From Romanomermis culicivorax (Eukaryota; Nematoda; Enoplea; Mermithida; Mermithidae), in assembly GCA_963922205.1 (NCBI GenBank), contig CAWUHX010000428.1:120741-184740 (forward strand): a stretch of 64,000 nt of DNA, given 5' to 3'. Below are positions 4,601 through 61,224 of this stretch, one piece after another. The translations under genes and the position numbers were made by a program. The stretch's first letter is position 1. The number at the start of each line of letters is the position of its first letter. The notes below the pieces were generated by a model. It was not told the DNA's origin. It saw only the letters and a list, made by a program, of their open reading frames with translations, and did no database searches.

Positions 4601-4748
4601 CCCTCAGCAAATATGGTTCAAACTACTCCTAAACCTGATCCTTCAACAAACTACTCTCTTTTCTTGCAATATTATTAGTTGGGATGTGGAAGCCATCTCA
4701 GGATAGGACCCCTAGACTGCATACACAGCAATATGCCAGATCAGTTAA

Positions 4749-29736: not shown

Positions 29737-31143
29737 TGTCACATTAAGTAGGTTAGTGATCAGTCACATTGATGGGAAAACCCATACCATATCCCATAGG
29801 AAATATGGCCATGACACTGTAGGTGTCATGCTGTGACCCCCTGGGGTGGCTCCATTTATATATTCAGTTCAGGAACCTAACCCAGCTGGTACTACCACAG
29901 GTGAACCTATGGTGTACCTCGACCTTGTCCTTGGGTTCTGCTGTAGAATAATGGACAACCCGGCCGGGTCAGGGGTGCCAATCCCTAGTCCTCATTCACT
30001 GAGAATGAGAGACAGTGCCATTCGCAGAATGGCGTACTGTAGAGGACCTGATTGTTAACCTAAAACCCCTTATTGGCCCTGACCTTAAGGGTCTGAGGGC
30101 TTTCTCAACTGAGGGTACTTCCAAGGGAAACTAGCTTAGGGGAGATTCCCACAAATATACCCTAAACAATGATAACCCCTGAGAAGACTCACTAAATCCT
30201 CTTCTCAAAGTACTCTGCGCTGGGCGACGGGTTCAGGGGTCAAAGCGTGGGTCCTACGGACGGCGACAAGTGGGTACTGGAATCTGGAGTGATTCCGCGT
30301 AAGCGGTAATGCGGCTGCGGGTCGGCAGGCGGCAGTATCAAACGTTTCCTTGTGGAGGGCCACGGGATTCTCGATCAACGGCGACGGGTGGTGAACTCCA
30401 ACACTTGGGTTACTGTAGCAGGCCACGTAAAGAAGACTGGAGGTGAGAATATGCAAATTTATTCAAAGAGTGGCATTCAGTAGAAATATAAAAATTAAAG
30501 TAATAAAGACTGCGAACGGCAAAGGCGAGATGCAGGCTAAAAGACGCAACAACAGTTAGGCCCAAAAATGAGTGTCAAACTAACAAAACATGCTCTTTTA
30601 AAGGGCTCCATAAACTACAGTATGCCTTGGGCGGAGTTAACACTCCCCCAAGCTAACTTCTGCAGCGGAAATCCTTGCAGAAGATGCTTATGGTCACATA
30701 GACATTTTCCAGTTCACAACGTTAAGCATTGGGGCGAGTTTTCACTCTCCATGCTTAACATAGGAACATCATCTAGTGAGAATTTCAAGCTAGTCGTTTC
30801 AGGTTGCAAAACGTGGCTAGTTTTTACTGATAAGAGGTGCACGTTGTGCTCCAACTACAGCGATGAGCTCGTAGAGCTTATCTCTAACGGAAATTCTTGA
30901 CAAGCAGGTACATACCATAGTCTACCTGTGGGATCGAAAACAATAAATCAAAACGGAAATAAAATGTGCGCAAATGAAACAGAGACAAAACATAAGAGTA
31001 CACACATAAATTGCATGTAAAAATTATAAAAACGAAACATAAAATTGATGCAAATTACTGTAACCCAAAACGTAATGAAAAAAGTAACCAAGAGTTGTGA
31101 TTTGAATCACGTGACATTCCACGAAATTCGTCGGCACATGATA
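29737..31143 (-). repeat. LTR1 (3' LTR of retroelement unit 1)
   Basis: About 1407 bp, matching LTR3 (48,991-50,399) almost end to end and LTR2 over its first 900 bp. Its outer end is TGTCAC. The inner end reads ATGATA where LTR3 has GTGACA. Confidence 0.88.
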
Positions 31144-31675
31144 CAGCAGTCCTTCGAAAAAAGGCGTCCTCGTCCTTGTATACGGGGTGGGGCATGTCCG
31201 TGGAGGTCAAACATACAGGTGAGGGTGATGGCAGGGGGTCGATGGTCCAGTGGTTTTTCTGTGCGTTTTGGCTCGCAGGATTATGTTAATGGTGTGCGGA
31301 GTTGCTGACGTCAATTGGAGATGCGTGGAGTTGCTGATGTCAATTGATCCATTTGGTGAAGTTGCCAATTGTCGATTGATTTGTGAAATCTGTAATGAGA
31401 CTAAAAGAAAAATTTTAGGGGCGAGATATAGGCTATGGCTCGGATGCACCTGTGATATAAGGCAATACCCTAGTTTAGATGCTTTGGTTGCTGCTCATTC
31501 TCTTCTTTACACTGCTGTCCCAGCATGGAACAGGAGTGGGTATTCTGTGAGGGGCACGGTGGTCCTTCAAAGAAGGACGACCCCATCCGTAAGATTAAAG
31601 AAGAGAAGAGCCTCTTGATTACAGGTCGGAGACCTCTGCATCAAGATGCGGGTCAATGAAATCTTGTGTAAAATC
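31144..31675. other. Retroelement 3' untranslated region
   Basis: Lies between the end of integrase coding and LTR1. It contains one CRE-like palindrome TGACGTCA (about 31,307) and a related TGATGTCA (about 31,336). Both recur in unit 2 near 45,490 and 45,520. No gene was seen. Confidence 0.6.
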
Positions 31676-33148
31676 TCAGTTTGTTGATGGAATCAACAAA
31701 GGTGCCATCTCGATGAGCTGTGAAGTGGAAGGTACCTCATCTGCTTCAGTACGCTGAGCTGGTGACACGTAGTGTCTAAGCTGATTGACATGCACAGTAT
31801 CTTCTTGATCTGCCTCAAGCGGAATGGTGACATTGGGATATGTCACATTTGTTACAAAGTAAGGCCCATCATATATGGGCAGCAATTTAGGGGTCAGACC
31901 ACGTTTGCGGTTGGTGCGCAGTTTGAGCACCTGATCACCTACTTTGTATGAGACATCTCTTGCCATGCAATGGTAAGATCGGGCATAAGCCACCTGTGAT
32001 CTCTCAATTCGGCTCTGGATCAAGGTCAAGGCATTTGTAAAATGCTGTTTGACCTCTATATCATATGTAGAAACATATATGATATGGGCTGGAGGGTTGA
32101 ATGAGAGTCCCGCATCAACAGGTAGCCTGGGTGTATGACCATACATGAGCTCAAAGGGTGAATATCCTGTGGACTCATTCATGCCAATGTTAACAGCAAA
32201 CACAGAATACAGCAGATGTTCATCCCAATCAGTATGACCTTGGTGGACATACATACGTAGCCGTGTAGTTAGCGTTTGATTAGCATTTTCCACTTTTCTG
32301 TTTGTCATCGCGTGATAAGCGGTGGAGTGGATTTTCTTAGTTGAACAAATGGCAGTGATTTCAGTCATCAATTTGGATGTGAAATCAGTGCCACGATCAG
32401 ACTGAAGGATCTGCAGTGCCCCATGTCTGCAGACAATTTGTGTAACAAAAAGTCGTGCTATGGTTTGCGCAGTAATGTTTGGAGTAGCAAAAGCTTCAAC
32501 CCATTTGATAAAGTAGTCGATAAAGACTACAATAAAACGGTTTCCATTTTCACTAGTGGTCATTGGTCCTATACAGTCGACACCGACTCGATGGACACCG
32601 ACTCAATGGAACGGTCCCGTAATGGTGATAGGTTTCAGAGTTGCACGGGTCTTTTGTCTCTCCGGTTTTTTCCCTTGGCAAAGATCACACCGCTTTCAAA
32701 AGGACTTGACGTCCGCACTGAGGGAAGGCCAGTGGTACCTGCGGGCTTTAAGCCTTGCAGTACGTTTTGCACCAAAGTGTCCAGCAAGAATGTCATTATG
32801 ATGGGCCTCAATAATGGTAGTAACCATTGATCGAGGAACAACAATCTTGTTGGACTCACCTGTCCACTTCTGAAGGATGTTATCCAACAGGTGGTAGCCA
32901 TTAACATCATTCTGATCACCATAGGGTTTTAGTGACCTAAGAATGGAGGCTAGTTCTGGATCCTCAAATTGAGCTGCGAAAAGGTCATGGTGCTGTGCAT
33001 GCTGTGATATCTCTGCATTAGACTCAGATCTAGCCAAGTGCTGTGCACCATCGGTGGTCCTTTGGGATGATCTCGCCAGGTGCTGCGCACCATTGGAGAT
33101 CATTTGAGATGTTCTCCCCAGGCGCTGAGCACCATCGGAGATCATCAT
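31676..33148 (-). pseudogene. Integrase of the env-bearing retroelement
   Basis: The zinc-binding N terminus is in 33,148-32,640: AHHNDILAGHFG gives the two His, and a CDLCQ pair follows after a stop near 32,696. The DDE core spans 32,590-32,250, with Asp in VDCIGPM, Asp in LQSDRGTDF (about 32,390) and Glu in RKVENANQTL (about 32,290). The C-terminal domain includes YKVGDQVLKL (about 31,945) and IYDGPYFVTNV (about 31,860), the region that binds DNA in this family. A small direct duplication (GAGTCGGTGT twice) disturbs the frame near 32,585. It closely resembles the integrase of element D and the second copy at 45.9-47.2 kb. Confidence 0.88.
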
Positions 33149-33245
33149 AATTTCTCCCTCGGGTCTGTATAGGGGAGTATTGTTGATACTCTCCCCGACA
33201 AGGGAATTAGGATCAGGAAGGCGTGATAATGGGTCAGCATTACCA

Positions 33246-34325
33246 TTAGACCGACCTTTTTCGCAGCCGAATTGTCAGTTTGAATTCAGCTAATGCCAAG
33301 CCCCACCAAGCTCTCCGGGCTGAAGGGTTGGTTTTCTCCAACACAGCCTTAACAGTGGTATGATCGGTCTGAACGACCACCTCATGTTGAAAGAGGTAAG
33401 GCTGAAAGTACTTGACGAAATGGACAACAGCGAGAGTCTCTAACTCAATAATAGTGTAGTTCTTCTCAGCTGCCGTTAACCCTCTACTGGTGTACACAAG
33501 AGGATGGTGGTATCCATTATCGTCTAACTGGCTCAGAACTGCCCCTATCCCTGAAATACTTGCATCAGTTTGAAGTATAAAGGATTTCGTAAAGTCTGGT
33601 TGGCGCAGAAGAGGAGGGTTCATCAACAGCCTTCGGAGTTCGTCCAATGCCACTTGCTGGGGTTTTGACCACAGGAAGGTGACTTCCTTCCATAAGAGCT
33701 TAGTCAGCGGTTTTCTGAGCCGGGCGCAACCAGGGATGAAACACCTATAATAAGACACAAGACCAAGAAAAGACTTTATGTCTTTGGCGTTTTGTGGAAT
33801 GGGTAGATCCTGGACGGCAGCCAATTTGACTTTATCCGGCTCTAGTCCATTCTGTGAGATAGGGTATTCTAGGTATTTTACCTCAGAGTGCGAAAACTTG
33901 CACTTGCTCAGTCTGAGCTTCATTCCACCCTGACGGAGACGCATAAACACATCCGTCAAGCGCTCAAGCATCTGGGTGTGAGAGTTCCCAAACAGCAAGA
34001 TGTCATCGAGATAGGTCAGTGCTGTAGGCCACTGCAATCATGTGAGAAGCAGATCCATGAGGCGTTAGAACGTCTCAGGGGCGTTGCAAAGACCAAAAGG
34101 CAGATAGTTGAACTCGTAAAGTCCAATTGGCATGTTAAACACCGTTTTCTCCTTGTCTGCCTCGGCAATAGGTATAGACCAGTAGGTGTTAGCCTGATCA
34201 AGAGTAGTAAAGTATTTCATACCCCTGAGTGTGTCGAGGATATCATCAATCCGTGGGAGAGGATAAACATCCTTTTTCGTGACCTCGTTAAGACCATGAA
34301 AGTCCACACACATCTGATGTGACAT
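33246..34325 (-). pseudogene. Reverse transcriptase and RNase H of the env-bearing retroelement
   Basis: Finger and palm motifs are in 34,325-34,065 (VDFHGLNEVTKKDVYPLPR; FNYLPFGLCNAPETF). After a frame break near 34,050, the catalytic box TYLDDILLF is intact (about 34,000-34,025). The thumb region GLVSYYRCFIPGC follows, and RNase H starts at FILQTDAS (about 33,560-33,585) and runs on to TDHTTVKAVLEK. It belongs to the same gypsy lineage as element D by shared phrases such as DQANxYWxIPIA and LPFGLCxAP. Confidence 0.88.
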
Positions 34326-35395
34326 ATTTTTCTTGCGAACCAGGACGGTATTAGTAGCCCAGGGGAAGGGCTAAGCCGAATAATTTCTTTTTCCTGGAGC
34401 GCTTTGACTTCTTGTATGATGAGATCCTTTTCCTTGGGCGCGGTGCAGTAAGGGAAATGGCGGACTGGGCGAGCATCACCTGTGCTGATCTCGTGGTGCA
34501 CGAGGTCAGTGGAACTTGTGTCCTTCTCATCAATAGCATAGAGGTCAGTGAATGGGACCAGTAGATCCAGCAATGCTGTTTTATCCTGTGAGGAGATATC
34601 AGGTGATATCACAGCATATGCTTCGACCCACTCATGGTCAAGAATGGTATCAGACTTAACTGCCGATCCCTGTGAGGTATCAGTGTGCATCTGCAAATGG
34701 CCGATGGTCGTATATGGGTAGAGAAGCACTGGGTGTGTACTTGGGTTAACCAGTAGGGGTATGCGACCGTTAGTCACAGTGCTCACAGTACTGGCAAAAT
34801 ACACACTGCGTTGTTGTCCCAAAAGGGGCTTAGGAAAGAAGGCTACCTCGGGCACAGTTGCATATAATGGAGGTACAGGTGTAGTAAATTGTGTCAGCAA
34901 GCGCGGCTCAAGGACAATCAACTTCTGCAAGGGTAGTGCCCCAGGAGCAGAGGGAGGATTGTGAATGAGGCCGTCACACGGAACCGGAAGTTCCTTGAAC
35001 TGAATAAAGGATTTCTCCCAAGTCAAGCTGAAGCAATTGAACTATCCGAGGAAGTTCATCCCCAAGACTAGTTCAGCTGAACAGTTCTCCTGAACTTGGA
35101 ACTGGATCCGTTCAGAGACATCAGCCACTGTCACGGTGACATAGGCAGCGCCTAGCAGTAGAATCGGAGACCCATTGACTGCTATGGGGCGAGCCCTGGT
35201 CTCTGTGAGTACCAAGTCGGGTAACTGGGCCGCCAACTTGTGATCCAGGACTGAGAAAACTGCTCCTGTATCAATCAGAGCTTTGGCTTCCACCCAGTTG
35301 TTTGGTAGAACTCTGATATGAGGGGTCCTCATTTCAGTGGGGTAGAAGGCTGACACCACATGACCTGGGTCAGGTACGGGGTCATCAAAACTCAC
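34217..35395 (-). pseudogene. Second aspartic protease (PR2) and pre-RT region of the retroelement
   Basis: PR2 covers 35,395-35,042. Its active site is ALIDTGAVFSVLD (about 35,248-35,280) and it ends in LVLGMNFLG, the second retropepsin box, with Asn where Asp is usual. A single TAG at about 35,039 separates it from the pre-RT segment and the first RT motifs (35,026-34,217) in the same frame. Upstream, a single TGA at about 35,407 separates it from the env-protease frame. PR2 therefore once read through from the upstream gene without a frame change. This position, right before RT, is the normal one for a gypsy protease. Confidence 0.8.
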
Positions 35396-35410: not shown

Positions 35411-36445
35411 TCATTTCAGTATCGGCAAACTGGTGCGTCGGAGTAGTCCTACCAGAGCATAACCAACTGAGGATTCCGGATGGGGCCGAGGAGTGGGATG
35501 GACCTGAACAGTAAGTACATGATCCGATCTCTCTCCTGAGCTCTGAGTAGCTCCTAATGATTCGACCTCAGTATCAGAGAGTGGTGGCACCTCTAGTACA
35601 GGGAATGCAGGTCCATCAGAATCACTAGGCTCGTGAAAACGGCCTTTCTCTAATGTAACCAGAGAATTTCCAGGCAGAGGTCGAGGACAGTTTGACCCTG
35701 ACCGAGCCACAAAATGACGACTGGCCCGTCTAGAAGAGGTCCGGCTACCCCTGGTGTATTCAAGTGATGAGGCAACCGAGGAAGCTCGCAATGGTGGCCG
35801 AGAAACGGACGGAGTCCTTGATCTTGATCGAGACCCGGACCTGTGGGAGGCCCGTGATAGTAAACGTGTGTTCTCCCACCAGGGCTCGACCTGATCAATC
35901 TCGGCCGCTGTCAGAAGAAGTGGCAGTTCCACCGCATTCAACCAACAAACCTGTTGTTGGTAATCAAATGTGATATTCTGGAATAGTTCGAGAAAGTCCA
36001 ATCCGAGAATCAGACCGACCAGTGCCCAGAAAGGAGACGTAGTCTTACACACATGGAGATGTACATCCACTCTTGTGTGTGGCTGACGGGTTCCAGGCAA
36101 CATGATCTCATACAGCCCTGATAGTAGAGTATGGATGGCTTTTCCATTAATACTCATTAATGGGTTAAAGTTGTAATGTTGCTGGAAAGCCATTGCCGCC
36201 TTGGGACTTTCTTTAATCAAGGCTTTGTGAAGGCGTTGACTAATGATGGTTTGTGGACAACCAGTGTCAAGGAAAGCAGGAGTTTCCTTGTGGTCAACCA
36301 GTTCGACAAAACTTGGAGTGATCCTGTCTAACTGAGTTGGCACATCGTTCTGCACGTAATGAAAACCTACCCAACGCTGAACTTTCTGGAGGAGGTTCAT
36401 CCGAGAGTATTGGCTAACAAACCAAACCTGTCTTTTCCGCAGGTG
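35411..36445 (-). pseudogene. First aspartic protease (PR1) fused behind the env membrane anchor, with RS-rich linker
   Basis: This frame continues without a break from the env transmembrane segment. A retropepsin-like domain has the active site AFLDTGCPQTIIS (DTG at about 36,260-36,268) and, about 85 residues later, LILGLDFLELF (about 35,984-36,013), the second conserved box. A linker with many Arg-Ser pairs follows ([13 protein letters not shown], about 35,795-35,835), then an acidic Pro/Ser stretch ending at the TGA near 35,407. Finding a second DTG protease in tandem with PR2, attached to a membrane glycoprotein, is unusual. It may act in particle maturation or be a duplicated non-functional copy. 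Sequence alone cannot decide. Confidence 0.7.
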
Positions 36446-38199
36446 GTAACAGAGGTAATAGGAGACCCCAACGTAGATGAGAAATCCTGTACCAGCCAGC
36501 ACTGCCAGCGTGATGAGTGTGTTAAAGATCAACTGCACTGGTCCACTCAAAAGAGACTGCAGGCCCTGTATGAGGTTGTGCTGTTGACCCGTAATCATGT
36601 GGTTTGCTGTCAGACCAACACCTTCCAGTGAGGCTTTGATGTCAGTTTCTACCTCCGCAACCGCCTGATACAAAGTATCTGGTTGTAGGATAGACCAGCG
36701 GTATAATTTACCAACCCGTTCAAGACCCCTTCAATTTGCTCAGTCTTGTAAACGTATTGTTTAAAGAAAGCAAAACTTGAAGGGGTCATCGCCAACTGAT
36801 CGTGAAAGAGTGCAGGAGCCTCAAAGTGAGTGAGGTTGAAGCGCTGTTTCCAGAACAGTTCAAGCAGAATGTGGCTCACATGGACCATGCCAGACTCAGT
36901 AAACCAGCCCGAGCGATTTCGGAAAATCCGGTCTGGGCCAACGGGGGTGGCGAAACAAATGGTACCGCCAACCTGTATGGGTAGATACTTGTAACAGGTG
37001 TCCCCCACTCGGTACCAATGGTAGACATAAGTGGCGTTGATCTTTTGACATGGACATATCGTCAGTGCTTCACCCGTAAATTCCGCCGTCAGGTCATTCC
37101 TTTGCAGAAATGCCCGGGCTCCTAGTGTAGGGTCAAGACGAAGCAACTGCCAAGTCAGATCAAGGTAGTGTAGAGCGTGAGAACACAACTCAAGCCACAT
37201 GAACCGAAAATTGTTAATTTCTGATTCTTTGATCTGCTGAGCCAGGTAGTTCAGTTTGGCATTGACGGGGTCAGGACGGGAGTCCTTTGTCAATCGGAAC
37301 AACCTCTGGGTCAAGTTAAATCTTCGGTGGATGCGTAGAAGAAGACCCTGATCCGTTTGTACTGTGTTCAACCGGAGGTCAGGACACAGCCGAAAGAGGC
37401 GAGAGTTTCCAGGGATCTTCAGGGCAACCTGCAAATTATCGATGATGATATGGTTTCCTGACACAGACGCAGTGTAATTACCCTGAGGTGGATAATGACA
37501 CTGTGCTGTGAAGTTTGTGGCAGGCCACACAATTACCCCGTCTAGAGTAGTGCATTGACCTGCAGTGGGACTGCATCCACCTACATCGGCTAAGGTACTT
37601 AGAGCTGTAGTGCCATCTCAGGAGGCGACCTGTCCCTCCTCGATGAAGAGGTTAGTCACTGTCCTGCAGACATCACTGCAGCACCATGAGTACATCACTT
37701 CCAGTGTTTGGTTAGTGCTATAAAAGCCAGGACGTATTTCCATAAGCATTTGTAAACCAAACACCTTCATGTGATGTGCTAGTGTACAGGCCGCAGGCGC
37801 TAGATGCTGAGTGGTAATGACGTCTGCAGTAATGCCCCTAGATCCGAAAAAACCAGTGTTGGTGCACACCTTACGGTTACGCAACGTGCACTTCCATGCT
37901 AAAGTAGTGACTGGATCAGAAATAGGAACATACACTGTAACATTCATGCATCCTGGACTCCAAGAAGATTTTGGTGGCTTGCATTCAACTTTTTGAGGTA
38001 GCTCAAGTGGATGACTGCTTCTTGAAAGACCACAAAATTGGTACTGAGTAGCATGTATTGCGGAGTTCATTCCTAAGAACAGTAGTGTCACGAAGGCCCA
38101 ATTTATTATGTACAAACTATTTACAAACGATACCCATAAATATACACCAAAATGTACAGTTTTCACCCGTCGGGCGGCTTCATTCTTTGTCATTGTCAT
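36446..38199 (-). pseudogene. env: Envelope-like membrane glycoprotein of the retroelement (broken)
   Basis: This encodes a type I membrane glycoprotein, presumably for entry or cell fusion. The start is taken at the ATG at about 38,199, which overlaps the end of the small upstream ORF. A hydrophobic signal peptide follows (about 38,150-38,060, [13 protein letters not shown]). The ectodomain is Cys-rich, with at least eight Asn-X-Ser/Thr sites, for example NVTVY, NFTAQ, NATYV and NLTHF. It ends in one transmembrane helix (about 36,446-36,535, LITLAVLAGTGFLIYVGV) and a basic anchor HLRKRQ. Breaks are one TGA at about 37,616 and one frameshift near 36,660. The layout fits viral fusion glycoproteins, perhaps the chuvirus-like class III type captured by some retroelements. 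That family link is a guess. It sits upstream of pol, not downstream as in known env-bearing elements. Confidence 0.68.
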
Positions 38200-38772
38200 C
38201 CGACGATACCGGTTCCTCTCGGGGGAAGTCAATGACCAAGCCTCTGCACGGGTGGACTTCGCGAAGAATGCCAATCTTCAGGGACCGCCAGGCAGTTGCT
38301 GTCGGGAATGGCGAGGCCTCAACAATGCTGACGTCATCCTTGACAGCACGCAACGTCTCTCCAAAGGTGTTGGCGAACAGTTGCTGTTGAGCAATTGCGG
38401 CCAGTATTTGGGCCCCTGTCATTGTCGTTGACGGTGACATGGCAACAACTGCTGTGGGCCGCGCCTTGCGAGAAGCTTCCTCCACAGCCCGGCCAATGGC
38501 GTCCACTGCCGGTGACAACGGTTCACCGTCCAACAGACTCTTGTCCACTGGAGTGGCACCAATAGTTCTGTCGGTGATAAACTCGAGGGATCATCAAGCG
38601 ACGTCGGGTCCCAATATCCGCAATGCTGCTGGCGCCGATAGCACCACGTCGGCGGCTGTAAGCGCCTCAACCTCGAACAGCTCATTGAGTAGCGCCCATG
38701 GGAGGTGGGTATACTTTTTGGCCAAATCCGTTGACCAAACGGCCCGCATTGCGTCGGTGACGGATGAGGAAT
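38180..38772 (-). pseudogene. Small unrecognised ORF between gag and env
   Basis: One minus-strand frame of about 190 codons is open except for a tandem TGA TGA near 38,600. It is Ala/Val/Ser/Glu-rich and probably helical (for example [14 protein letters not shown], about 38,380-38,420). Its first codon can be supplied by splicing from the gag frame across 38,773-38,858. Its stop overlaps the env ATG by about 20 nt in another frame, as in reinitiation or shunted translation. The complementary plus strand is also open but looks like a shadow. I do not recognise a family. It may be an accessory protein or the C-terminal part of a spliced gag. Confidence 0.45.
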
Positions 38773-38858
38773 CTGTAAACGAGAAATCATTAAAGCCGGT
38801 GACTTATAAGGATATCTGATTTTCAGACCTGAAATGTCAGAAAAAGAAGGTAGTTTAC
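38773..38858 (-). other. Putative 86-nt intron between gag and the small ORF
   Basis: On the minus strand it starts GTAAAC and ends in a pyrimidine-rich TTTCTCGTTTACAG. The phase-1 junction joins ESMNLI to DSSSVTDAM, keeping both flanks open. Its length is not a multiple of three, and unspliced reading leads to a different frame. RNA evidence would be needed. Confidence 0.45.
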
Positions 38859-40600
38859 CTATCAGATTCATCGATTCCAATTGACCGACGACCTCCAATG
38901 CCGAGTCCATGGGAATTCCGGGCGGCAGTCCTTGGGGATAAAATGGGCCGGAGGCGCTGGTGTACCTTCCCTCGGTGGATGCGACGTGATTAGGCTGACG
39001 TCGCCAGTCGTCTTCGGTGTCATTGACAGGTTTAAGTTGACCAGCATCGCATATTTCGGTGGTGGCGGGGGGAAAACCCACACCGGAGTCAGTGCCGAAG
39101 CCACTGCGGCAGCTGCAAACCCAATACTGATTACACAGACAGGATAACACAGTTGTGAGTGATCTGCCAGATGTTCAGCCAGAACTTCATCATCCAGATC
39201 AAGCAGATTTGGGTGAAGAAGACCATCGGTAGCCCCTACTACATTATTTTGCCGTGTGGGTGACCGATATTGGTTCCATGTCCCGTGAGGAGTTGGATCA
39301 GGATAACACCAAAAATCTCCACTTGCCCCCTGAGGAGAGTAACCAGAATTACCAAAGTTAGTCTCACCAGGCAATGTCGAAATCCAATTTGGGCAGGCCA
39401 TGGCCCTGTGCACTCGTAGCTTTCGGCAATGGGGGCAGGGTCTGTCGCATCCATCAGTCGGGTGCACCCTTGTTCGACAAAAATAGCAACGGCTGGCGCC
39501 AGTGGCGGTGGGGTTGCTAGGGCCGGTGCTATCGGGATGTTGGGCCCGGCAATTAGCTTTGTTGTGGGTGCAACGTCCATGGTAGGAGCACATCTGTAAA
39601 TGTGTCCCTGATGGGCGATCACCAGCGTTTTGGACACGCGTCGACGGCATCGTTGATGGCGTCGAATTTCTTGGAGGCGGCGCCGTTTGCTGAGCTATAA
39701 GTTGGGCAACATGAGCCGTAAGCCGGGCCATCTCAGATTGTAAACCTCGAATTTTGTCGGACGGCGTTGCCGACGGATGTTGAGCAGTGCCCCTTTGATT
39801 CCACATTGACCTGACGTTGTCGGCGGTCCTCTGTTCTGAAGAGAAAACAGCATTAAGTGGGGCAGTATACCTAATCTCATCCCCAAAAATCTGTGATTCT
39901 GCATAGCCTGCTTTGAGAGTCTCTTCAAGAGTTGTGAACTCCCTGAACTTAATACTATCTCAAAGGACTGGTTTCAACCCTATCAGAAAGATAGGTTTTA
40001 TAATCGAATCCCTAACGTCAGTCGCGAGATCCCGATAGGCCACCCTGGACAGTCTCTTAAGGTGCTCAAGATAGACTATCGCGGACTCAGTCCGCTTTTG
40101 CAGACGATCCTGGATCAACTGCTGATGCAGATCTGAGTCACGCCCTACTGGAAAGTCTTTCCTCAGAAAAGCCCTGAACTCTTCGTGGCGGGTACGCTGC
40201 GGAGTACGACTGCTAAAGTCCGGGTAGGATGCGGGAGCAGGACTGTTAGGCAAGACTCCAGAAACGCGATTTCATATGCATGATCCATCTCTGTTACCCC
40301 TTGAAGTGTAAAGAAAGGGGTCAAGTGAGATATAAAATTCTTTATGGACTCACCAAAAGCACCTGAAAAGGCAGGACGGGCCATGAAGCTGGACACAGGA
40401 GGGTGCCTTCTGCCATTCATAGCCTCCAGCTTTTGGTTGAGTGGTCCTAGGGCATTCTCAAATGCAGCTTTGACCTTATTCTCAATCTATGAAGGTAGAT
40501 CAACTTCTGACTTCATAGTTGAGAGTTCGTCTTCCTGTAAGGTAGCTAAGACTGATAATCGTGCCTGTGAAGCTATTCAATCAAACTGAATGGAGAGGGG
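38859..40600 (-). pseudogene. gag: Gag of the env-bearing retroelement
   Basis: The N-terminal helical region (about 40,600-40,425) ends ALGPLNQKLEAMN. A capsid domain follows (40,420-39,950) with FGESIKNFISHLTPFFTLQG and YLEHLKRLSRVAYRDLATDV, broken by a frameshift near 40,250 and a TGA at 39,958. A coiled coil with Gln-rich tail leads to a Cys/His region: CSYHGRCTHNKANC (about 39,555-39,600), CYFCRTRVHPTDGC (about 39,445-39,490) and CPHCRKLRVHRAMAC (about 39,400-39,445). These are three zinc-knuckle-like units instead of one. Downstream is a hydrophobic stretch CVISIGFAAAAVASALTPVW (about 39,085-39,145) and Pro-rich sequence. The C terminus shifts frame near 38,920 and may continue through the small intron. 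Confidence 0.75.
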
Positions 40601-43600
40601 CTCACTTGTCTACTTAAGCTTAGTACTAAGGCGACAGTAACGTCTAGGTGTCTCTATTTTGTGAAAGTGAAGTAAGTGTTACTTTTGTAGTCGGGTGGTG
40701 AAGAGGCACAGAAATTACGAGATTGTTTATGGGACGGCGTTTTAGAGGCTTTAACTCTTGTTCTTTACAATAACTAGCGACCACTCAGTGATGGGGCTAG
40801 AAAAGAACAAGGTTTTAGCTCTCAGAACAGCCAGAAGGAAAGATAGGTTGACTCAGTAGGGAATTTATCTGGTCACCTATGTACTTAGAGAGGGGATAAC
40901 CCGAGTGTAAAGAGAGGTGAAATTATACCCAAACTTCAGAAATTAATGGGGCTAGACCTGGCTCTTTGAACTAAAAGTAAATAAATTTAAATGAAATGGT
41001 GGTTTCCCAACCATAAAAGAAACAGATGACGTGAGGACGTAGGGATAAACCCGCCCAAAAGGGAATTTTATTTGGACGTTAAGTCTGTTGTGCTAGTTTA
41101 CAAACTTTGGATATGGGAGGGCTCTTAACCAACGAAGTCCTACTCACCAGGAGTAGCGCATAGAGTAGCTTAAGAATTAATAAGTAAAGGGGGACAACTT
41201 AAAGTAAACTTAATGGGTGTAAATAGATAGGGACAAAATTAGTTTACACACCAGATTACGCAAAGAAGATGCGCTATTACGCAATCGGCCTCACTCACTA
41301 GGAGCAATTGCAAACTCTGAAAAGTGTGATGACTAGACAGGAGGTTCTCAAGGGGACGACATTTGCATGTACTTTACAACCGTGCCCAAAACCGGAATGC
41401 CTGTTTTGAACAGAACAGGAACTCTCCAGGAGCACTATATACAGCTGGGGGCCGGGATTCCAGTCACTGAGATGAAGTGAGGATCCCTAGGTCACCAGTT
41501 GGAGGCAAGAGCACCAGGTACCAAGGTGCTATTCTGACACACTCAGTCAGTAAATGGGTGGCATGGGGGTCCTTGGCCCAGCTGCTCCTAAATGGAGTTG
41601 GAGAAATGCAGGCTTCCTCCTATGAATTGAGGCTAGGCTCAACACATCTTGAGATCAGGGGTACAGTCTGTCTTGATTAAGTGAGTGTAAAGTGAGGGGC
41701 TAAGGTGGACTTAGTTGTGATGTGTTTAGGCGGACTTGAACATATTCACTCAGGCGGACTAGCAGCATATTATGCTATAGGGACAACCAACGAAGGCGGA
41801 CTCAGGATTAAGGGCAACTCTAGTGCGGACATTATTAGGCCAGCTAAGGAAGGCGTTTGAGTGTAAAGAATGATTACAGAGGGGCCTTTTACACTTTAAG
41901 CCCAACCAGTGGCTGTGCCGTAATTCCTGAGAAATTATTCTGGTGGGGACACTAAAGAAGATCATAGATGAGAAAGAAATGCGAGAATTTAGATAAGAAA
42001 TTTACAAGAAGGTTGTCAACCCTTGCTCTTGTTAAGCACAGGCAGTACCAACTGCAAATGCCTAACTGTTGCATATGTTGAACAACCAACCCAGCTGAGG
42101 CCGAGTGTAAACCCCTTCAAACCTGCAGTTAAAGCTTTGAAGGTAGTCACATGCTGATCCATCAGTGCTGCTACCCTGGCGGACAGCCTGATCAGTATCA
42201 TGGACGGAATGCATCTCAGGTTGAGTGAGCATGTCAGCTGATGTTTTCCACGCACCAGTGACACACAGACACAACCCTTAGACAAGAGCCGTAGGTGAGA
42301 ACGTGATACTCCAATCATCACCTAGGACTCAAGTGGCATCTTGGAAACCCACAGTAACCCCCGTGCTGACGTCAAAAGATGTGATATACACCACCACACA
42401 CTCGGTGCTGACCTCAGGTAACTGGGATGTAAGTGCCATAGTCTCATATTGCAGTATGTATGCCAAAAAGTATGAGCCTATGGCTACAGACTTCTTACGG
42501 CAATACAGGGCATCACTGTTGCTGACGCCAGAATAAGACTGTAAAGTCTTAATTCTGATACTGGAATAGAGACATTATCATTGTGGTCATCAGTAGATAG
42601 GGCCCTAAGGCCAGCAACCCTGCTACTTCAACATGGAGCATCGCCATTGCTGGCGTCAAAAGGTAATAGCTGAGTCTCAGTTATCCTACAACAATGATAT
42701 GAGATGCAGTTGTTGCAGACGCCAGATGTGGGGTTTGTAAGGCCTCACATCTCCGAACAACAATACGGTGCATTGTTGTTGCTGACGTCAAGGGCTGAAG
42801 CCGGAATAACCAACCAGTCCTAGTGCAACAACACGAGCCTCTTCTGTTGCAGACGTCAGAGAGACAGTGCCATACGGTCACCATCCTGCAATAATAACCT
42901 GTTACGTTGCCATTGCTGACGTCAGAGGTAGGGCCGGAGGGCCACCCACCCCTTAAAGCAACAGCAAGGGATGCAGCTGTTGCCGAGGCGGGGGAGGACA
43001 CAGAGAACCATCAACCCCTCTAATGGCCACATGCTATGCAGCCATTGCTGACGTCGGAGGCATGACCTAGTTAGGCATGCCTCAGTGCAACAGCAGCATG
43101 TGAGGTAGTTGCAGACGTCAGAGGTAGGGTCCCCAAAACACATCACCTCATAGCAAAACCACAATAAGTAGTTGTTGCTGATGTCAGTAGTCACGATCAG
43201 TAAAATTGTTACCACATGCAACCACCCAGAGAGAGAAGGAAGAAGGGGAAGACCGTACAGTAGTGGAAAAATAATAAAAATGACCTACTGAAGGGTTCCC
43301 AACTATGACGTATGTGTGAACGGTAAAAGAAAATGTTTTTTTTTTTGATAAATTTGAATAGAAGGGAAAAGAGAATAGTGTTTTTATTTGTTTTTCATAG
43401 GAAAAAGTATAAATTTTTAATTTGTTTGTTTAGAAAAAGGAGAGAAAATGGGTTATTAGTTTTTATTTGAGTTGATTCTTGAGATAAGAAAATTTATTGG
43501 GTGAAAAAGTTATGATAGTTGGGTCACACGTTACCCATAGAAGGCCGAGAAAAGAAAAAGTAAAGTAAATAAAATAAAATTTGAGGCCCAAGAGATAAGC

Positions 43601-44528: not shown

Positions 44529-44540
44529 CCAGCCTCGCCA
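44529..44540 (-). promoter_or_regulatory. Candidate primer-binding site of retroelement unit 1
   Basis: On the minus strand, TGGCGAGGCTGG directly follows the LTR end GTGACA (44,541). It is identical to the candidate PBS of element D at 7369. Confidence 0.6.
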
Positions 44541-45477
44541 TGTCACATTAACTGAAAATGGGAGCCATGTCACATTAAGTGGATTGGTGATCAGTCACAT
44601 TGATGGGAAAACCCATACTATATCCCATAGGAAAAATGGCCATGACACTGTAGGTGTCACGCTGTGACCCCCTGGGGTGGCTTCTTTATATATTCAGTTC
44701 GGGAACCTAACCCAGCTGGTACTACCACAGGTAAACCTATGGTGTACCTCGGCCTTGTCCTTGGGTTCTGCTGTAGAATAATGGACAACCCGGCCGGGTC
44801 AGGGGTGCCAATCCCTAGTCCTGATTCACTGAGAATGAGGGACGGTGCCATTCGCAGAATGGGGTACTGTAGAGGACCTGATTGTTAACCTAAATCCCCT
44901 TATTGGCCCTGACCTTAAGGGTCTGAGGGCTTTCTCAACTGAGGGTACTTCCAAGGGAAACTAGCTTAGGGGAGATTCCCACAAATATACCCTCAACAAT
45001 AATAACCCCTGAGAAGACTCACTAAATCCTCTTCTCAAAGTACTCTGCACTGGGCGATGGGTTCTGGGGTCAAAGCATGGGTCCTACGGACGGCGAAGAG
45101 CGGGTACGGGAATCTGGAGTGATTCGGCGTAAGCCGTAATGCGGCTGCGGGTCGGCAGGCTGCCGTATCAAACGTTTCCTCAGGGAGGGCGACGGGATTC
45201 TCGATCAACGGGGATGGGTGGTGAACTCCAATGCTTGGGTTACTGTAGCAGGCTACCTAAAGAAGACTGGAGGTGAGAATATGCAAATTTATTTGACGAG
45301 TGGCAAAGGCAGTAGAAATATGTAAATTAAAGTAATAAAGATGGGGAACGGCAAAGGCGAGATGCAGGCTAAAAGACGCAACAACAGTTAGCCCAAAAAT
45401 GAGTGTCAAACTAACAAAACATGCTCTTTTTAAGGGCTCCATAAACTACAGTATGCCTTGGGCGGAGTTAACACTCA
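44541..45477 (-). repeat. LTR2, shared middle LTR, truncated
   Basis: Matches LTR1 and LTR3 over about 900 bp, then breaks off within GGAGTTAACACTC at about 45,477, lacking the last 500 bp or so. It begins with the LTR end motif twice, TGTCACATTAA at 44,541 and again at 44,568. It is the 5' LTR of unit 1 and what remains of the 3' LTR of unit 2. Confidence 0.82.
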
Positions 45478-45481
45478 ACCA

Positions 45482-48016
45482 GAGTTGCTGACGTCAATTG
45501 GAGATGCATGGAGTTGCTGATGTCAATTGATCCATTTAGTGAAGTTGCCAACTGTCGATTGATTTGTGAAATCTGTAATGAGACTAAAAGAAAAATTTTA
45601 GGGGCAAGATATAGGCTATTGGTTGGATGCGCCTGTGATATAAGGCAATACCCTAGTTTAGATGCATTGGTTGCTGCTCATTCTCTTCTTTACACTGCTG
45701 TCCCAGCATGGAACAGGAGTGGGTATTCCGTGAGGGGCACAGTGGTCCTTCAAAAAAGGATGACCCCATCCGTAAGATTAAAGGAGAGAAGAGCCTCTTG
45801 ATTACGGGTCGGAGACCTTTGCATCAAGATGCGGGTCAATGAGATCTTGTGTAAAATCTCAGTTTGTTGATAGAATCAACAAAGGTGCCGTCTCGATGAG
45901 CCATGAAGTGGAAGGTACCTCATCTGCTTCAGTAGGCTGAGGAGGTGACACGTAGCGTCTAAGCTGATTGACATGCACAGTATCTTCTTGATCTGCCTCA
46001 AGCCGAATGGTGACATTGGGATATGTCACATTCGTTACAAAGTAAGGCCCATCATAAATGGGCAGTAATTTAGGCGTCAGACCATGTTTGCCGGTGGTGG
46101 GCAGTTTGAGCACCTGATCACCTACTTTGTATGAGACATCTCCTGCTATGCAATCGTAAGATCGGGCATAAGCCACCTGTGATCTCTCAAATCAGCTCTG
46201 AATCAAGGTCAAGGCATTTGTAAAATGCAGTTTGACCTCCATATCATAAGTAGAAACATCTATGATATGGGCTGGAGGGTTGAATGAGAGCACCGCATCA
46301 ACAGGTAGCATGGGCATACCACCATACATGAGCTCAAAGGGTGAATATCCTGTGGACTCATTCATGCTAATGTTGACGGCATACACAGAATACGGCAGGT
46401 GTTCATCCCAATCAGTATGACCTTGGTGGACATACATATGTAGCCGTGTAGTTAGCGTTTGATTAGCTCTTTCCACTTTTCCGTTTGTCATCGCATGATA
46501 AGCAGTGGAGTGGATTTTCTTAGTTGAAGAAATGGCAGTGACTTCAGTCATCAATTTGGACGTGAAATCAGTGCCATGATCAGACTGAAGGATCTGCAGT
46601 GCCCCATGTCTGCAGACAATTTGTGTAACAAAAAGTCGTGCTATGGTTTGCGCAGTAATGTTTGGAGTAGCAAAAGCTTCAACCCATTTGATAAAGTAGT
46701 CGATAAAGACTACAATAAAATGGTTTCCATTTTCACTAGTGGTCATTGGTCCCATACAGTTGACACCGACTGGATGGACATAACTCGATGGAATGGTCCC
46801 GTAATGGTGATCGGTTTCAGAGTTGCACGGGTCTTTTGTCTTGCGGGTTTATTCCGTTGGCAAAGATCACATCGCTTTCAAAAGGACTTGGTGTTCGCAC
46901 TGAGGGAAGGCCAGTGGTACCTGCGGGCTATAAGCCTTGCAGTACGTTTTGCACCAAAGTGTCCAGCAAGAATGTCATTATGATGGGCCTCAATAATGGT
47001 AGTAACCATTGATTGAGGAACGACAATCTTGTTGGACTCGCCTGTCCACTTCTGAAGGATGTTATCCAACAGGTGGTAGCCATTAACATCATTCTGATCA
47101 CCATAGGGTTTTAGTGACCTAAGAATGGAGGCTAGTTCCGGATCCTCAAATTGAGCTGCGAGAAGGTCATGGTGCTGTGCATCCAGTGATATCTCTGCAT
47201 AAGACTCAGACCTCGCCAGGTGCTGCACACCATGGGTGGTCCTTTAGGATGATCTCGCCAGGCGCTGCGCACCATCCGAGATCATTTGAGATGTTCTCGC
47301 CAGGCGCTGAGCACCATCGGAGATCATCATTATTTCTCCCTTGGATCTGTATAGGGGAGTATCGTCAATACTCTCCCCGACAAGGGAATTAGGATCAGGA
47401 AGCGTGATAATGCTTCAGCATTACCATTAGACCAACCTTTTTCGCGGCCGAATTGTCAGTTTGAATTCAGCTAACGCGAGGCCCCACGAAGCTATCTGGG
47501 CTGAAGGGTTGGGTTTCTCCAACACAGCCTTAACAGTGGTATGATCAGTCTGAACAACCACCTCATGTTGAAAGAGGTAAGGCCGAAAGTGCTTGACAAA
47601 ATGGACAACAGCGAGAGTCTCTAACTCCATAATAGTGTAGTTCTTCTTAGCTGCCGTTAACCCTCTACTGGCATACACAACAGGATGGTGGTATCCATTA
47701 TCGTCTAACTGGCTCAGAACTGCTCCTATCCCTGAAATACTTGCATCAGTTTGAAGTATAAAGGATTTCGTAAAGTCCGGATGGCGCAGAACAGGAGGGT
47801 TCATCAACAGCCTTTGGAGTTCGTCCAACGCCGCTTGCTGGGGTTTTGACCACAGGAAGGTGACTTCCTTCCATAAGAGCTTAGTGAGCAGTTTGCTGAG
47901 CTGGGGGCAACCAGGGATGAAAGGCCTATAATAAGACACAAGATCAAGAAAAGACTTGATGTCTTTGGCGTTTTGTGGAATGGGTAGATCCTGGACGGCA
48001 GCCAATTTGACTTTTG
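45482..48016 (-). pseudogene. Partial pol of retroelement unit 2 (integrase, RNase H, part of RT)
   Basis: Nearly identical to 31,298-33,833 of unit 1. Integrase core Asp residues (VDCIGP, though in a shifted context; LQSDHGTDF) and Glu (GKVERANQTL) are readable at 46,480-46,790. The zinc-site His pair is in 47,228-46,878. RNase H spans 47,427-47,800. Stops and frameshifts differ from those of unit 1: near 46,190 a TGA splits the integrase C terminus. Similarity to pol ends abruptly at about 48,016 in the RT thumb, where an inverted piece of leader is joined. The RT palm, proteases, env and gag are absent, so this unit cannot be autonomous. Confidence 0.85.
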
Positions 48017-48951: not shown

Positions 48952-48963
48952 CCAGCCTTGCCA
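48952..48963 (-). promoter_or_regulatory. Candidate primer-binding site of retroelement unit 2
   Basis: One substitution from the PBS of unit 1 (TGGCAAGGCTGG on the minus strand). It adjoins the LTR end motif of LTR3. Confidence 0.5.
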
Positions 48964-50399
48964 TGTCACATTAACTGAAAATGGGAGCCATGTCACATTA
49001 AGTAGATTGGTGATCAGTCACATTGATGGGAAAACCCATACTATATCCCATAGGAAAAATGGCCGTGACACTGTAGGTGTCATGCTGTGACCCCGTGGGG
49101 TGGCTTCCTTTATATATTCAGTTCGGGAACCTAACCCAGCTGGTACTACCACAGGTAAATCTATGGTGTACCTCGGCCTTGTCCTTGGGTTCTGCTGTAG
49201 AATAAGTGACAACCCGGCTTAGTCAGGGGTGCCAATCCCTAGTCTTCATTCACTGAGAATGAGGGATGGTGCCATTCGCAGAATGGCGTACTGTAGAGGA
49301 CCTGATTGTTAACCTAAATCCCCTTATTGGCCCTGACCTTAAGGGTCTGAGGGCTTTCTCAACTGAGGGTACTTCCAAGGGAAACTAGCTTAGGGGAGAT
49401 TCCCACAAATATACCCTCAACAATAATAACCCCTTAGAAGACTCACTAAATCCTCTTCTCAAAGTACTCTGCCCTGGGCGACGGGTTCTGGGGTCAAAGC
49501 GTGGGTCCTACCGACGGCAACAAGTGGGTACCGGAATCCGGAGTGATTCGGCGTAAGGGGTAATGGGGCTGGGGGTCGGCAGGCAGCAGTATCAAACGTT
49601 TCCTCGGGGAGGGCGATGGGATTCTCGATCAATGGCGATGGGTGGTGAACTCCAACGATTGGGTTACTGTAGCAGGCCACGTAAAGAAGACTGGAGGTGA
49701 GAATATGCAAATTTATTCGAGGGGTGGCAAATGCAGTAGAAATATGTAAATTAAAGTAATAAAGACGGCGAACGGCAAAGGGGAGATGCAGGCTAAAAGA
49801 TGCAACAACAGTTAGGCCCAAAAATGAGTGTCAAACTAACAAAACATGCTCTTTTATAAGGCTCGATAAACTACAGTATGCCTTGGGCGGAATTAACACT
49901 CCTCCAAGCTAACTTCTGCAGCAGAAATCCTTGCAGAAGATGCCTATGGTCACATAGAAATTTTCCAGTTCACAACCTTAAGCATTGGGGCGAGTTTTCA
50001 CTCTCCATGCTTAACATAGGAATGTCATCTAGTGAGAATTTCAAACTAGTCGTTTCATGTTGCGAAACGTTGCTAGTTTTTACTGATAAGAGGTGCACGT
50101 TGTGCTCCAATTACAGCGATGTGCTCAGAGAGCTTATCTCTAACGGAAATTCTTGACTAGCAGGTACATACCGTAGTCTACCTGTGCGATAGAAAACAAT
50201 AAATCAAAACGGAAATAAAATGTGCACAAATGAAACAGAAACGAAACATAAAAGTACACACATAAATTGCATGTAAAAATTTTAAAAACGAAACTTAAAA
50301 TTGATGCAAATTACTGTAACGCAAAACGTAATGAAAAAAATAACGAAAAGTTGTGATTTGAATCACGTGACATTCGACAACATTTGTCGGCACGTGACA
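48964..50399 (-). repeat. LTR3 (5' LTR of retroelement unit 2)
   Basis: The 1409-bp core (48,991-50,399) matches LTR1, ends in GTGACA and is followed by the CAAC duplication. As in LTR2, an extra TGTCACATTAACTG block (48,964-48,990) sits between the core and the PBS. Confidence 0.88.
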
Positions 50400-50403
50400 C
50401 AAC

Positions 50404-50992
50404 AAACGCATACTAATTTCTAAAATTCACCATTAACCTTCAGTTCCTTAAAATTTATAGGCTTAGCTCTGCCTCCAGATGCTATCGTCACCTGCTGGGG
50501 GTTGTGAATCAATTGCGGCATTTACTACTGTAAAATTAGGGCAACATCAAAAATTTTCTCGATGCTTTACAAGATGACGCGGCAACTGTGCACAGAGCTG
50601 AGGCGTTAATTGATAACGAATCCTTGAAAGATGAACTTTTCAACATTGCAACATACGAGTTTTTGCCGACTGCTATTGAAAAACTGGAAACGCAGGGGCT
50701 GGCTAAAGAGAAACAGTGGAAAATCGTTACGGATGCGTTGCAATGCATGGACGGCTTTGCAAAAGAAAAGTTGTTGGCCAGTTTGAATAGAAATCCAGAT
50801 GTTAAAGCATTTGTTGAGAATAAGGATCCTGAATTTCTTTTACAGACTGCATATGCTCCTTTGGTGTCAGTTGATGTAGAACGTTCGTTTTCTTTGTACA
50901 AATCTATTCTATCGGACCATCGTCATAATCTCACATTAGATAACATAGAAATGTTGAACATACTGACGTTCAATGAGTTTTTGTTTGCCTGA
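50404..50992 (+). pseudogene. hAT transposase, C-terminal half with dimerisation domain
   Basis: Resumes the hAT gene right after the CAAC duplication. About 50,465-50,530 reads LPPDAIVTCWG then INCGIYY across a TGA, corresponding to the LPP...TRWGTW box of hAT proteins. After a frame change near 50,535 the remainder is open to 50,992. It ends in the hAT C-terminal dimerisation motif APLVSVDVERSFSLYKSIL (about 50,847-50,903). This, with the terminal repeats, proves that the two halves belong to one transposon. Confidence 0.9.

Positions 50993-60539: not shown

Positions 60540-61224
<685 letters not shown>

Follow-up and report, generated by a model that had tools for sequence, protein, structure and literature searches.

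The window (the whole 64,000-nucleotide stretch of Romanomermis culicivorax DNA that was analysed) carries on its minus strand a decayed copy of a large retrovirus-like family in which the envelope gene lies between gag and pol. For retroviruses and LTR elements with env, a gag-pol-env order and packaging of the polymerase as a Gag-Pol fusion are regarded as standard. Here, the env–pol order, the shared frame, the selection acting on it and its presence in several families and in other sources were observed directly. These elements probably represent a Ty3/gypsy-type lineage in which a class III-like (Monjiviricetes/gB-related) fusogen sits between Gag and Pol and is read into Pol as a membrane-threading polyprotein.

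Gene order and reading frame in the window

The features of the window are listed below. P0003, a 2604-aa protein from another source, was used as the reference for colinearity.

29737..31148, minus strand: 3' LTR, about 1.4 kb, 93.3% identical to 48991-50404
31676..32980, minus strand: broken integrase with H2C2, rve core and SH3-like tail; colinear with P0003 2179-2584
33246..34361, minus strand: reverse transcriptase (RT) and RNase H (PF17919 5e-32, PF17917 6e-32, PF00078 1e-8); P0003 1762-2129
34217..35026, minus strand: protease–RT segment, an ORF in the frame of PR2 and the anchor; equivalent position in P0003
35042..35395, minus strand: PR2, retroviral-type aspartic protease (LIDTGAVFS ... 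LVLGMNFL; PF13975 5e-8, PF13650 3e-6)
35411..36425, minus strand: PR1, an additional domain resembling aspartic proteases (FLDTGCPQTIIS ... LILGLDFL), then an S/R/P-rich linker
36458..36553, minus strand: Env C-terminal membrane anchor, in frame with PR1 and PR2 (from sequence)
36649..37530, minus strand: Env ectodomain, central and C-terminal part (PF24664 Monjiviricetes_fusion, E 1.1e-9)
37618..38274, minus strand: Env N-terminal part (ORF), signal-peptide-like segment at about 38068-38133; P0003 724-1286 matches 38301-36682
38180..38548, minus strand: C-terminal part of ORF X (the 'small ORF'), -1 frame, across the gag-env junction
38868..39806, minus strand: Gag C-terminal part, Cys/His zinc-finger-like region (from sequence)
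39858..40486, minus strand: Gag capsid region, broken; matches P0003 30-254
41940..42872, minus strand: 5' leader fragment, assigned from its position; inverted copy at 48015-48946 (93.4% identity)
44529..45476, minus strand: truncated LTR; 44568-45476 is 94.1% identical to 29737-30645
45482..48014, minus strand: pol fragment from a second copy, which carries an internal deletion; 94.1% identical to 31299-33833
48952..50404, minus strand: LTR of the second copy, 93.3% identical to 29737-31148

The truncated LTR is either the 5' LTR of the window element or belongs, as 3' LTR, to a deleted copy next to it. The window holds two copies, both broken, along with truncated LTRs and a leader piece in inverted orientation.

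Read along the minus strand, the order is gag–small ORF–env–PR1–PR2–RT–RNase H–integrase–LTR. Up to integrase this is the order proposed in the initial annotation, which was borne out; the window is colinear with parts of P0003 residues 30-2584. The matching parts are gag (40486-39858), env (38301-36425), protease to RT/RNase H (35323-33258) and integrase (32980-31715). The integrase match in the window copy (PF00665, 5e-6) was under its cut-off, and the gag pieces matched no Pfam gag family and were named through their match to relatives.

Three ORFs occupy a common frame, namely 36673-35411 (anchor and PR1), 35395-35042 (PR2) and 35026-34217 (pre-RT), since their starts (36673, 35395 and 35026) are 1278 and 369 nt apart. 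The frame is broken by two stops, at 35411-35413 and 35042-35044. The ORF coordinates therefore agree with the single frame and two stops described initially, whose positions (about 35,407 and 35,039) were only a few bases off. In the window copy, ectodomain and anchor of Env do not have a common frame: the two ectodomain ORFs (37618-38274 and 36649-37530) share one frame, and the 857 nt separating them from the anchor ORF is not a multiple of 3, which places an additional frameshift near 36.65-36.69 kb.

Related copies, other sources and selection

The genome contains at least 40 matches to the env region, the window copy included (40 of 1045 candidates scored). A COX1 gene on its contig C117 reads with mitochondrial code 5, which, judged by conserved residues, points to a host among the protostomes but outside the flatworms. 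Among 20 family copies fetched downstream of env, two of them truncated, the order env–PR1–PR2–RT–RH–IN was found in 18 and an LTR followed the integrase in 17; only two were open from the anchor to RNase H. None of these 20 copies, nor any of the loci and proteins examined from other families and sources, showed a gag-pol-env order or had env separated from pol by an LTR or other insertion boundary.

Less-decayed copies were found, and the order with env inside was inserted recently as one LTR-bounded unit. In three other copies, the element lies between nearly identical LTRs with TG..CA ends and is flanked by 4-bp target duplications, the boundaries being read by eye. In the window's family, the LTR pair of C431 is 99.3% identical over 1436 nt, and the LTRs of C82 show 99.5% identity over 1132 nt, with 98.0% in an overlapping stretch of 407 nt. 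In C15, which belongs to a different family, the LTRs are 100% identical over 894 nt in overlapping comparisons, and the internal region is almost filled by one ORF.

At loci matched by a Gag-Env protein, each of the 37 gag matches lies 868-1087 nt upstream of an env match and within the open frame of the latter. At 17 of 39 related loci the open frame spans 2400 codons or more, the longest having 2583 codons. Such frames, together with the matches of the env region across the genome, indicate that the arrangement is not due to chance. Env, protease and RT form one frame in L043 and L046, two loci of another family, and in the proteins from other sources. Three of the latter, P0003, P0005 and P0007 (2535–2604 aa), hold Gag, Env, PR, RT, RH and IN in a single chain with env ahead of PR, RT, RH and IN, although for P0005 and P0007 the Pfam gag match, and for P0007 also the protease match, fell under cut-off. 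The former Env-Pol polyprotein suggested at first is supported as regards the shared Env-Pol frame and too short as regards its extent: at other loci a single ORF runs from Gag through Env to Pol. No relative was confirmed among 245 pattern-matching stretches in IMG/VR or among 44 in bacterial and archaeal contigs.

The order PR-RT-RH-IN is kept in the family copies and in the other-source proteins, and Pol is nearest to Ty3 among solved structures (PDB 7q5b, E 4e-125; 4ol8, E 2e-90). In an RT-RH tree built without the L039 and L042 families, a split with a support of 0.997 separates three further gypsy elements found in the window from the env-bearing ones.

Purifying selection acts on env as on pol. 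With 7-19 copies per segment, the share of substitutions at the third codon position was 0.62-0.67 in env, PR1 (0.67), PR linker, PR2, pre-Pol, RT-RH and IN; for gag, three close copies gave 0.66. In the L038 family the share was 0.44-0.67, falling to 0.30-0.38 in the last intervals, which hold few changes. The L043 linker has an excess at codon position 2 (0.33-0.35), for which a fast-evolving linker is an unproven explanation.

Encoded proteins and their expression

The initial annotation had proposed chuvirus-like, baculovirus F-like and retroviral glycoproteins for comparison with Env. By profile, Env is of the Monjiviricetes/gB kind and neither baculovirus F-like nor retroviral. PF24664 scored over its cut-off (27 bits) in all 68 scored env matches of the genome, with 37.3 bits for the window and 67.0 bits for L043. 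When an env profile was compared with PDB sequences, five matches were obtained up to E 1, the best being 5c6t (E 9e-6). Four of them are named gB, and the fifth, named 'ORF8', we take to be a gB as well. The single env sequence L004 gave no match in PDB up to E 1, and Pfam Glycoprotein_B was under cut-off in P0002 and L042. As a profile, Env thus appears related to the class III fusogen of herpesviruses, gB, and is designated class III-like. The N-terminal part of the L004 Env aligned with P0001 and P0002, and many env cysteines are invariant between sources. Hydrophobic segments flank the ectodomain on both sides, and a strong one lies behind env, at the anchor position, in P0001 and P0003-P0008.

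Both proteases of the initial annotation are present, PR1 being an extra protease: two PF13975 stretches were found in L026, a member of the window's family, and a single Pfam protease stretch in L043, L039 and P0003-P0008. PR1 of the window itself matched PF13975 weakly (E 0.12, under cut-off), and its DTG gave 16 motif matches over 20 copies. For gag, the region of L029 (window's family) equivalent to the window capsid matched PF19259 Ty3_capsid over cut-off (1.3e-7); in L043 and P0007 this match was under cut-off. The Gag C-terminal region of L029, equivalent to 38868..39806, lies in the env frame.

From hydropathy and orientation, a membrane-threading polyprotein may be proposed. Gag would remain cytosolic, an internal signal segment would direct the Env ectodomain to the ER lumen, and the C-terminal Env anchor would return the chain across the membrane. 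The protease directly after the anchor would then free RT, RNase H and integrase on Gag's side, and Pol would reach the budding site via the Env anchor, by analogy with the flavivirus chain. In the window's family, the arrangement would be Gag, the overlapping ORF X, then Env-Pol, with Pol made as an Env-Pol fusion. Chances appear even that this describes a widespread lineage, at least partly invertebrate, with capsid, fusogen and polymerase in one Gag-Env-Pol chain (Env-Pol in some families) and with the polymerase packaged via the Env anchor, not by a Gag-Pol fusion. If so, proteolysis, reinitiation or the overlapping ORF X would determine the stoichiometry, in place of the usual Gag-Pol frameshift.

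A less likely but serious alternative is that Env-Pol (and X) are made from separate spliced or reinitiated messages, with the full-length RNA serving for Gag; the unbroken Gag-Env frame of some families would then be a by-product of compact coding. The gag-env junction of the window's family bears on this point. The 'small ORF' noticed at first does exist, but as the C-terminal part of ORF X, which spans the junction and whose substitution pattern shows selection. The whole of X is free of stops in 6 of 10 copies. Its ATG is kept in 11 of 11 copies and its stop in 10 of 10, which favours separate messages. The same holds for an in-frame ATG before the Env signal segment, present at the main site in 5 of 10 copies (L001, L002, L005, L007, L008) and at a nearby site in L003, for the lack, over L029 4141-4420 in the Gag frame of 11 copies, of any X XXY YYZ heptamer that would allow a -1 shift from Gag to X, and for the long 5' leader (about 2.2 kb in C431). 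No tandem repeats were found in L029 1-2400.

In contrast, L029-L032 have no ATG ahead of the signal segment and two of the four are open throughout; the nearly uninterrupted C15 and the 37 gag matches in the open frame of env also argue against separate messages. Translation may also start at a later ATG, which closes the signal segment (L029 4922) and is found in 8 of 10 copies. As the Gag-to-Env frame is open in 3 of 10 copies, with some stops recurring between copies and the main-site ATG in half of them, a continuous Gag-Env-Pol is not general in the window's family, and some of its copies are predicted to make Env-Pol from an ATG of its own. X itself is apparently specific to this family, since no long -1 ORF (longest listed, 65 aa) was found in L043 and L046, the two copies of the L043 family with gag in the env frame.

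It is improbable that the internal glycoprotein is no longer a fusogen and only anchors Gag or Pol to the membrane, as its ectodomain is under purifying selection and retains the invariant cysteines and the gB profile match. Slightly more doubtful still is the excision of env as an intron to give Gag-Pol, which would make the internal position a regulatory choice and not a polyprotein. Because the coding frame continues unchanged across env, in-frame excision is possible in principle, and another Ty3/gypsy element, Cer1, is reported to make a spliced product (PMC10309623); nothing in the present data requires it. Finally, a local rearrangement or chimera of decayed elements, to which the broken copies, truncated LTRs and inverted leader piece of the window might point, is refuted: 18 of the 20 other copies have the same order, as do copies flanked by target duplications, other families and other-source proteins.

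Comparison with known systems

The preferred reading, a fusogen internal to a polyprotein, was compared with known elements. The Metaviridae/Ty3-gypsy (Ty3 and the env-bearing errantiviruses) share the TG..CA LTR ends, the 4-bp target duplication, the Ty3-type capsid, the PR-RT-RH-IN order and an RT nearest to Ty3 among solved structures. In contrast, env, if any, is located downstream of integrase in their ICTV profile (PMC7879559), whereas here it is found upstream of the protease, between gag and PR, and fused to Pol. Anakin, a BEL/Pao element of mosquitoes listed in PMC7642597 as LTR, GAG, PR, RT, RH, integrase and GLY, also holds a chuvirus/Monjiviricetes-kind glycoprotein within an LTR element; however, its Pol is of the BEL/Pao type and the glycoprotein is listed after it, whereas here Pol is Ty3-like and env precedes PR. 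In PMC9094657, the Atlas virus, a hookworm belpaovirus, is described as a single Gag-Pol-Env polyprotein with a class II Env in last position. One long Env-containing polyprotein is likewise found here, in families other than that of the window, with the difference that Env is internal.

PMC10084718 reports no clear evidence that Jingchuvirales glycoproteins were captured by Gypsy or Copia elements; a Monjiviricetes/gB-like fusogen in Ty3/gypsy-type elements is documented here. In the literature covered, which left aside bioRxiv as a collection and most subscription papers, no report of a gag-env-pol order was found among the hits listed, and a report elsewhere is possible. Annotation that seeks env after integrase would miss such elements. 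A BEL/Pao-like element represented by P0009 has a related env (29-38% identical to 14 others compared) placed differently from the present one, after the apparent end of a BEL/Pao Pol (DUF5641, E 0.015, under cut-off), which is the usual order.

Env inside the polyprotein would be another workable plan for such elements, and invites comparison with threaded polyproteins of the flavivirus type. In flaviviruses, capsid, glycoproteins and enzymes derive from one membrane-threading chain. The Gag-Env-Pol product might work like such a capsid–glycoprotein–enzyme chain, although the flavivirus genes are unrelated and reverse transcription is not involved.

Env-bearing element of the window and its copies

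Between about 29.7 and 50.4 kb, the minus strand of the window carries one decayed LTR element together with pieces of a second copy. By sequence match, this element is colinear with P0003, a 2604-aa protein from another source. Its gag pieces matched no Pfam gag family and were named through their similarity to P0003 and to the gag of other copies.

Terminal repeats of the element
29737-31148, minus strand: LTR, recurring at 48991-50404 (93-94% identical)
44529-45476, minus strand: truncated LTR, 93-94% identical to the LTR at 29737-31148

Since these LTR copies are only 93-94% identical, the insertion is probably old. PR1 (35411-36425 in the window, and in the copies) is an extra aspartic protease domain between the Env anchor and PR2, the retroviral-type protease. 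The initial annotation had described the env anchor, PR1, PR2 and the pre-RT segment as a single frame interrupted by two stops, and reading of the window ORFs bore this out. The Env ectodomain of this copy is broken, its frame being different from that of the anchor. Elsewhere in the window, a low-complexity tandem repeat (unit of about 52 bases) occupies 60541-61195.

When the 359-Mb genome was searched with the env region, at least 40 matches were found, including the window copy; this is a lower bound, as the best 40 of 1045 first-look candidates were scored. Downstream parts were fetched for the best 20 of the 39 other matches. The series env, anchor, PR1, PR2, RT, RNase H and integrase was complete and in order in 18 of these 20 copies, and an LTR followed the integrase in 17; L015 and L021 are truncated copies and L010 has no LTR match. 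The reading from the anchor was open to PR1 in 13/20 copies, to PR2 in 6/20 and to RNase H in 2/20. Gag precedes env in the upstream pieces of four copies, among them those on contigs C431 and C82.

These two were traced to their ends. LTR identity is 99.3% over 1436 bp in the C431 copy; in the C82 copy it is 99.5% for a stretch of 1132 nt and 98.0% for an overlapping one of 407 nt. Both copies have TG..CA LTR ends and 4-bp target duplications (ATAG and CGCT, respectively), boundaries having been read by eye, and they are single insertions bearing gag, env and pol. The env-before-pol order pointed out earlier is thus not a local REARRANGEMENT, since the 18 copies and these two LTR-bounded insertions agree. 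From the coordinates, the 5' leader that separates the LTR from the gag ORF (L029/L030) is very long, about 2.2 kb in C431 and 3.9 kb in C82; tandem repeats were sought in positions 1-2400 of L029, and none was found.

Substitutions were counted by codon position against L029 or L026, two copies of the family, each copy being used once and copies having less than 96% identity. The third-position share was 0.62-0.67 in env-N, env-C, PR1, the PR1-PR2 linker, PR2, pre-Pol, RT-RNase H and integrase (7-19 copies per segment). For gag it was 0.66 (67 changes in three close copies), shorter gag windows nearing the env junction being less clear (0.35-0.50). Because the copies have a common history and many of them are defunct, these counts reflect selection that acted in the past on the source lineages. 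The constraint on Env as a protein was about as strict as that on Pol, and the env-bearing element is one coding unit, selected and recently inserted.

Gag-env junction, Env and proposed mechanism

In the window's family, the small ORF at the gag-env junction, ORF X, comprises 190 codons in the -1 frame; its ATG is present in 11/11 copies and its stop is kept in 10/10. Over L029 4170-4800, changes fall most often on the second codon position as counted in the Gag/Env frame, equivalent to the third in the -1 frame (share of 0.49 in six copies and 0.54 in three close copies). Six of ten copies (L029-L032, L007, L008) have X open over its full length, whereas in the others it is interrupted by stops or, in L005, by the loss of a single base. 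The Gag/Env frame is open across X in three of ten (L029, L030, L008), and two of its stops recur in L007 and L001. An Env-frame ATG lies just ahead of the X stop in L001, L002, L005, L007 and L008 and nearby in L003; L029-L032 have none at this site. A further ATG, where the signal segment ends, is found in 8/10 copies. By this pattern of ATGs and frames, the family shows two states: an Env-Pol with a separate start next to the X stop and, in some copies, a frame running open from Gag to integrase. The one-chain state is found in the L043 family, another env-bearing family of this genome, and in the foreign proteins P0003, P0005 and P0007.

The central part of the window Env matched PF24664, the Monjiviricetes fusion protein family (37.3 bits, cut-off 27). 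When a profile of seven env sequences was compared with the PDB, herpesvirus gB was the best match (E 9e-6 and 2.5e-4); five PDB sequences were retrieved up to E 1, of which four are named gB and the fifth 'ORF8', which we take to be a gB. A single env sequence gave no PDB match. The ectodomain, counted in two copies, is 516-520 residues long, contains 8-9 N-glycosylation motifs along with 16-17 cysteines, and is flanked by one hydrophobic segment before it and a strong one after it. In P0007, the first segment is under the hydropathy threshold, yet visible in the sequence.

In the proposed mechanism, the internal signal segment would direct the Env ectodomain into the ER lumen and the anchor would stop transfer, with Gag and Pol ending on the cytosolic side. 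The protease adjoining the anchor may release the enzymes, and Env would carry Pol to the particle. PR1 and PR2 of the window's family both carry DTG (16 and 19 motif matches, respectively, over 20 copies) and could act as a linked pair. Pfam protease stretches number two in L026 and one in L043, L039 and P0003-P0008. The protease active-site motif of L038 (contig C201) is DCG, not DTG or DSG.

Other env-bearing families and proteins

With P0001, a Gag-Env protein from another source, as query, the same genome gave at least 39 env and at least 37 gag matches (best 39 of 5039 candidates scored). Each of the 37 listed gag matches is located 868-1087 nt ahead of an env match, with which it shares strand, frame and open frame; in L044 and L045, env matches without a gag match, gag is upstream in another frame. 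For 17 of the 39 listed env matches, the surrounding open frame has 2400 codons or more, the longest having 2583. L043-L046, the four loci read among these 39, form one family. In its copy on contig C15, the LTRs are 100% identical over 894 bp (overlapping comparisons), the 4-bp target duplication is CAGT and, from the coordinates, the ORF leaves only about 30 nt to the LTR on each side. A PF24664 search of the genome gave at least 68 matches, 68/68 being above cut-off (best 68 of 2320 candidates scored). On the minus strand of contig C180 (G000), matches at 404-910, 8769-9275 and 17134-17640 are spaced by exactly 8365 bases, which suggests that copies of an env-bearing element are arrayed head to tail.

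When the L043 env region was used against the protein collection, six relatives were found (3923 candidates). P0003, P0005 and P0007 (2604, 2597 and 2535 aa), from JGI, NCBI and ENA contigs of 10.5-11.3 kb, have the order PF24664, protease, RT, RNase H, integrase, with a Cys/His knuckle pattern N-terminal to env. Their gag-type Pfam matches ahead of env are below cut-off, save the P0003 zinc knuckle, as is the P0007 protease match. P0006 is Gag-Env-PR, and P0004 and P0008 are partial Env-PR-RT proteins. The labels of P0008 and P0010 are those of bacterial MAGs, which was taken for contamination.

Evolution and comparison with known elements

The trees, which are unrooted, contain few taxa and gapped rows. 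In the RT-RNase H tree, three further gypsy elements of the window are divided, by a split with support 0.997, from a group made up of the env-bearing elements and the 8.6-kb element of the window, whose env, if any, lies outside the window.

Other pol fragments of the window placed in the RT tree
4731-6103, 14249-15423 and 18671-22194, plus strand: gypsy-type pol fragments, other side of the 0.997 split
8435-10974, plus strand: RT-integrase fragment, env-bearing side, 53-54% identical to P0003 over RT-RNase H

Upstream of the 8435-10974 fragment, no env or gag match was found within the window. In the env tree, too, P0003 pairs with P0004; the L043, L038, L039 and window families, all of this genome, group together (0.906), and the L042 family is placed elsewhere, without support. 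In P0009 (739 aa, NCBI contig of 5.7 kb), a related env is fused behind an apparent end of a BEL/Pao Pol (PF18701, with E 0.015 below cut-off), which is the usual order. This order, with a related env, suggests a possible exchange of env between BEL/Pao and Ty3/gypsy elements.

Among known elements, as described in excerpts of the respective articles, Anakin is a BEL/Pao element with a chuvirus glycoprotein (PMC7642597) and Atlas virus encodes a single Gag-Pol-Env chain of 2828 residues (PMC9094657); for capture of Jingchuvirales glycoproteins by Gypsy or Copia elements, the excerpt reports no clear evidence (PMC10084718). The window's element is Ty3/gypsy-like in Pol and Gag. However, it departs from the order stated for Metaviridae in the corresponding part of the ICTV profile, where env is encoded downstream of integrase (PMC7879559), and because of this departure it was classed apart from ordinary Ty3/gypsy members.
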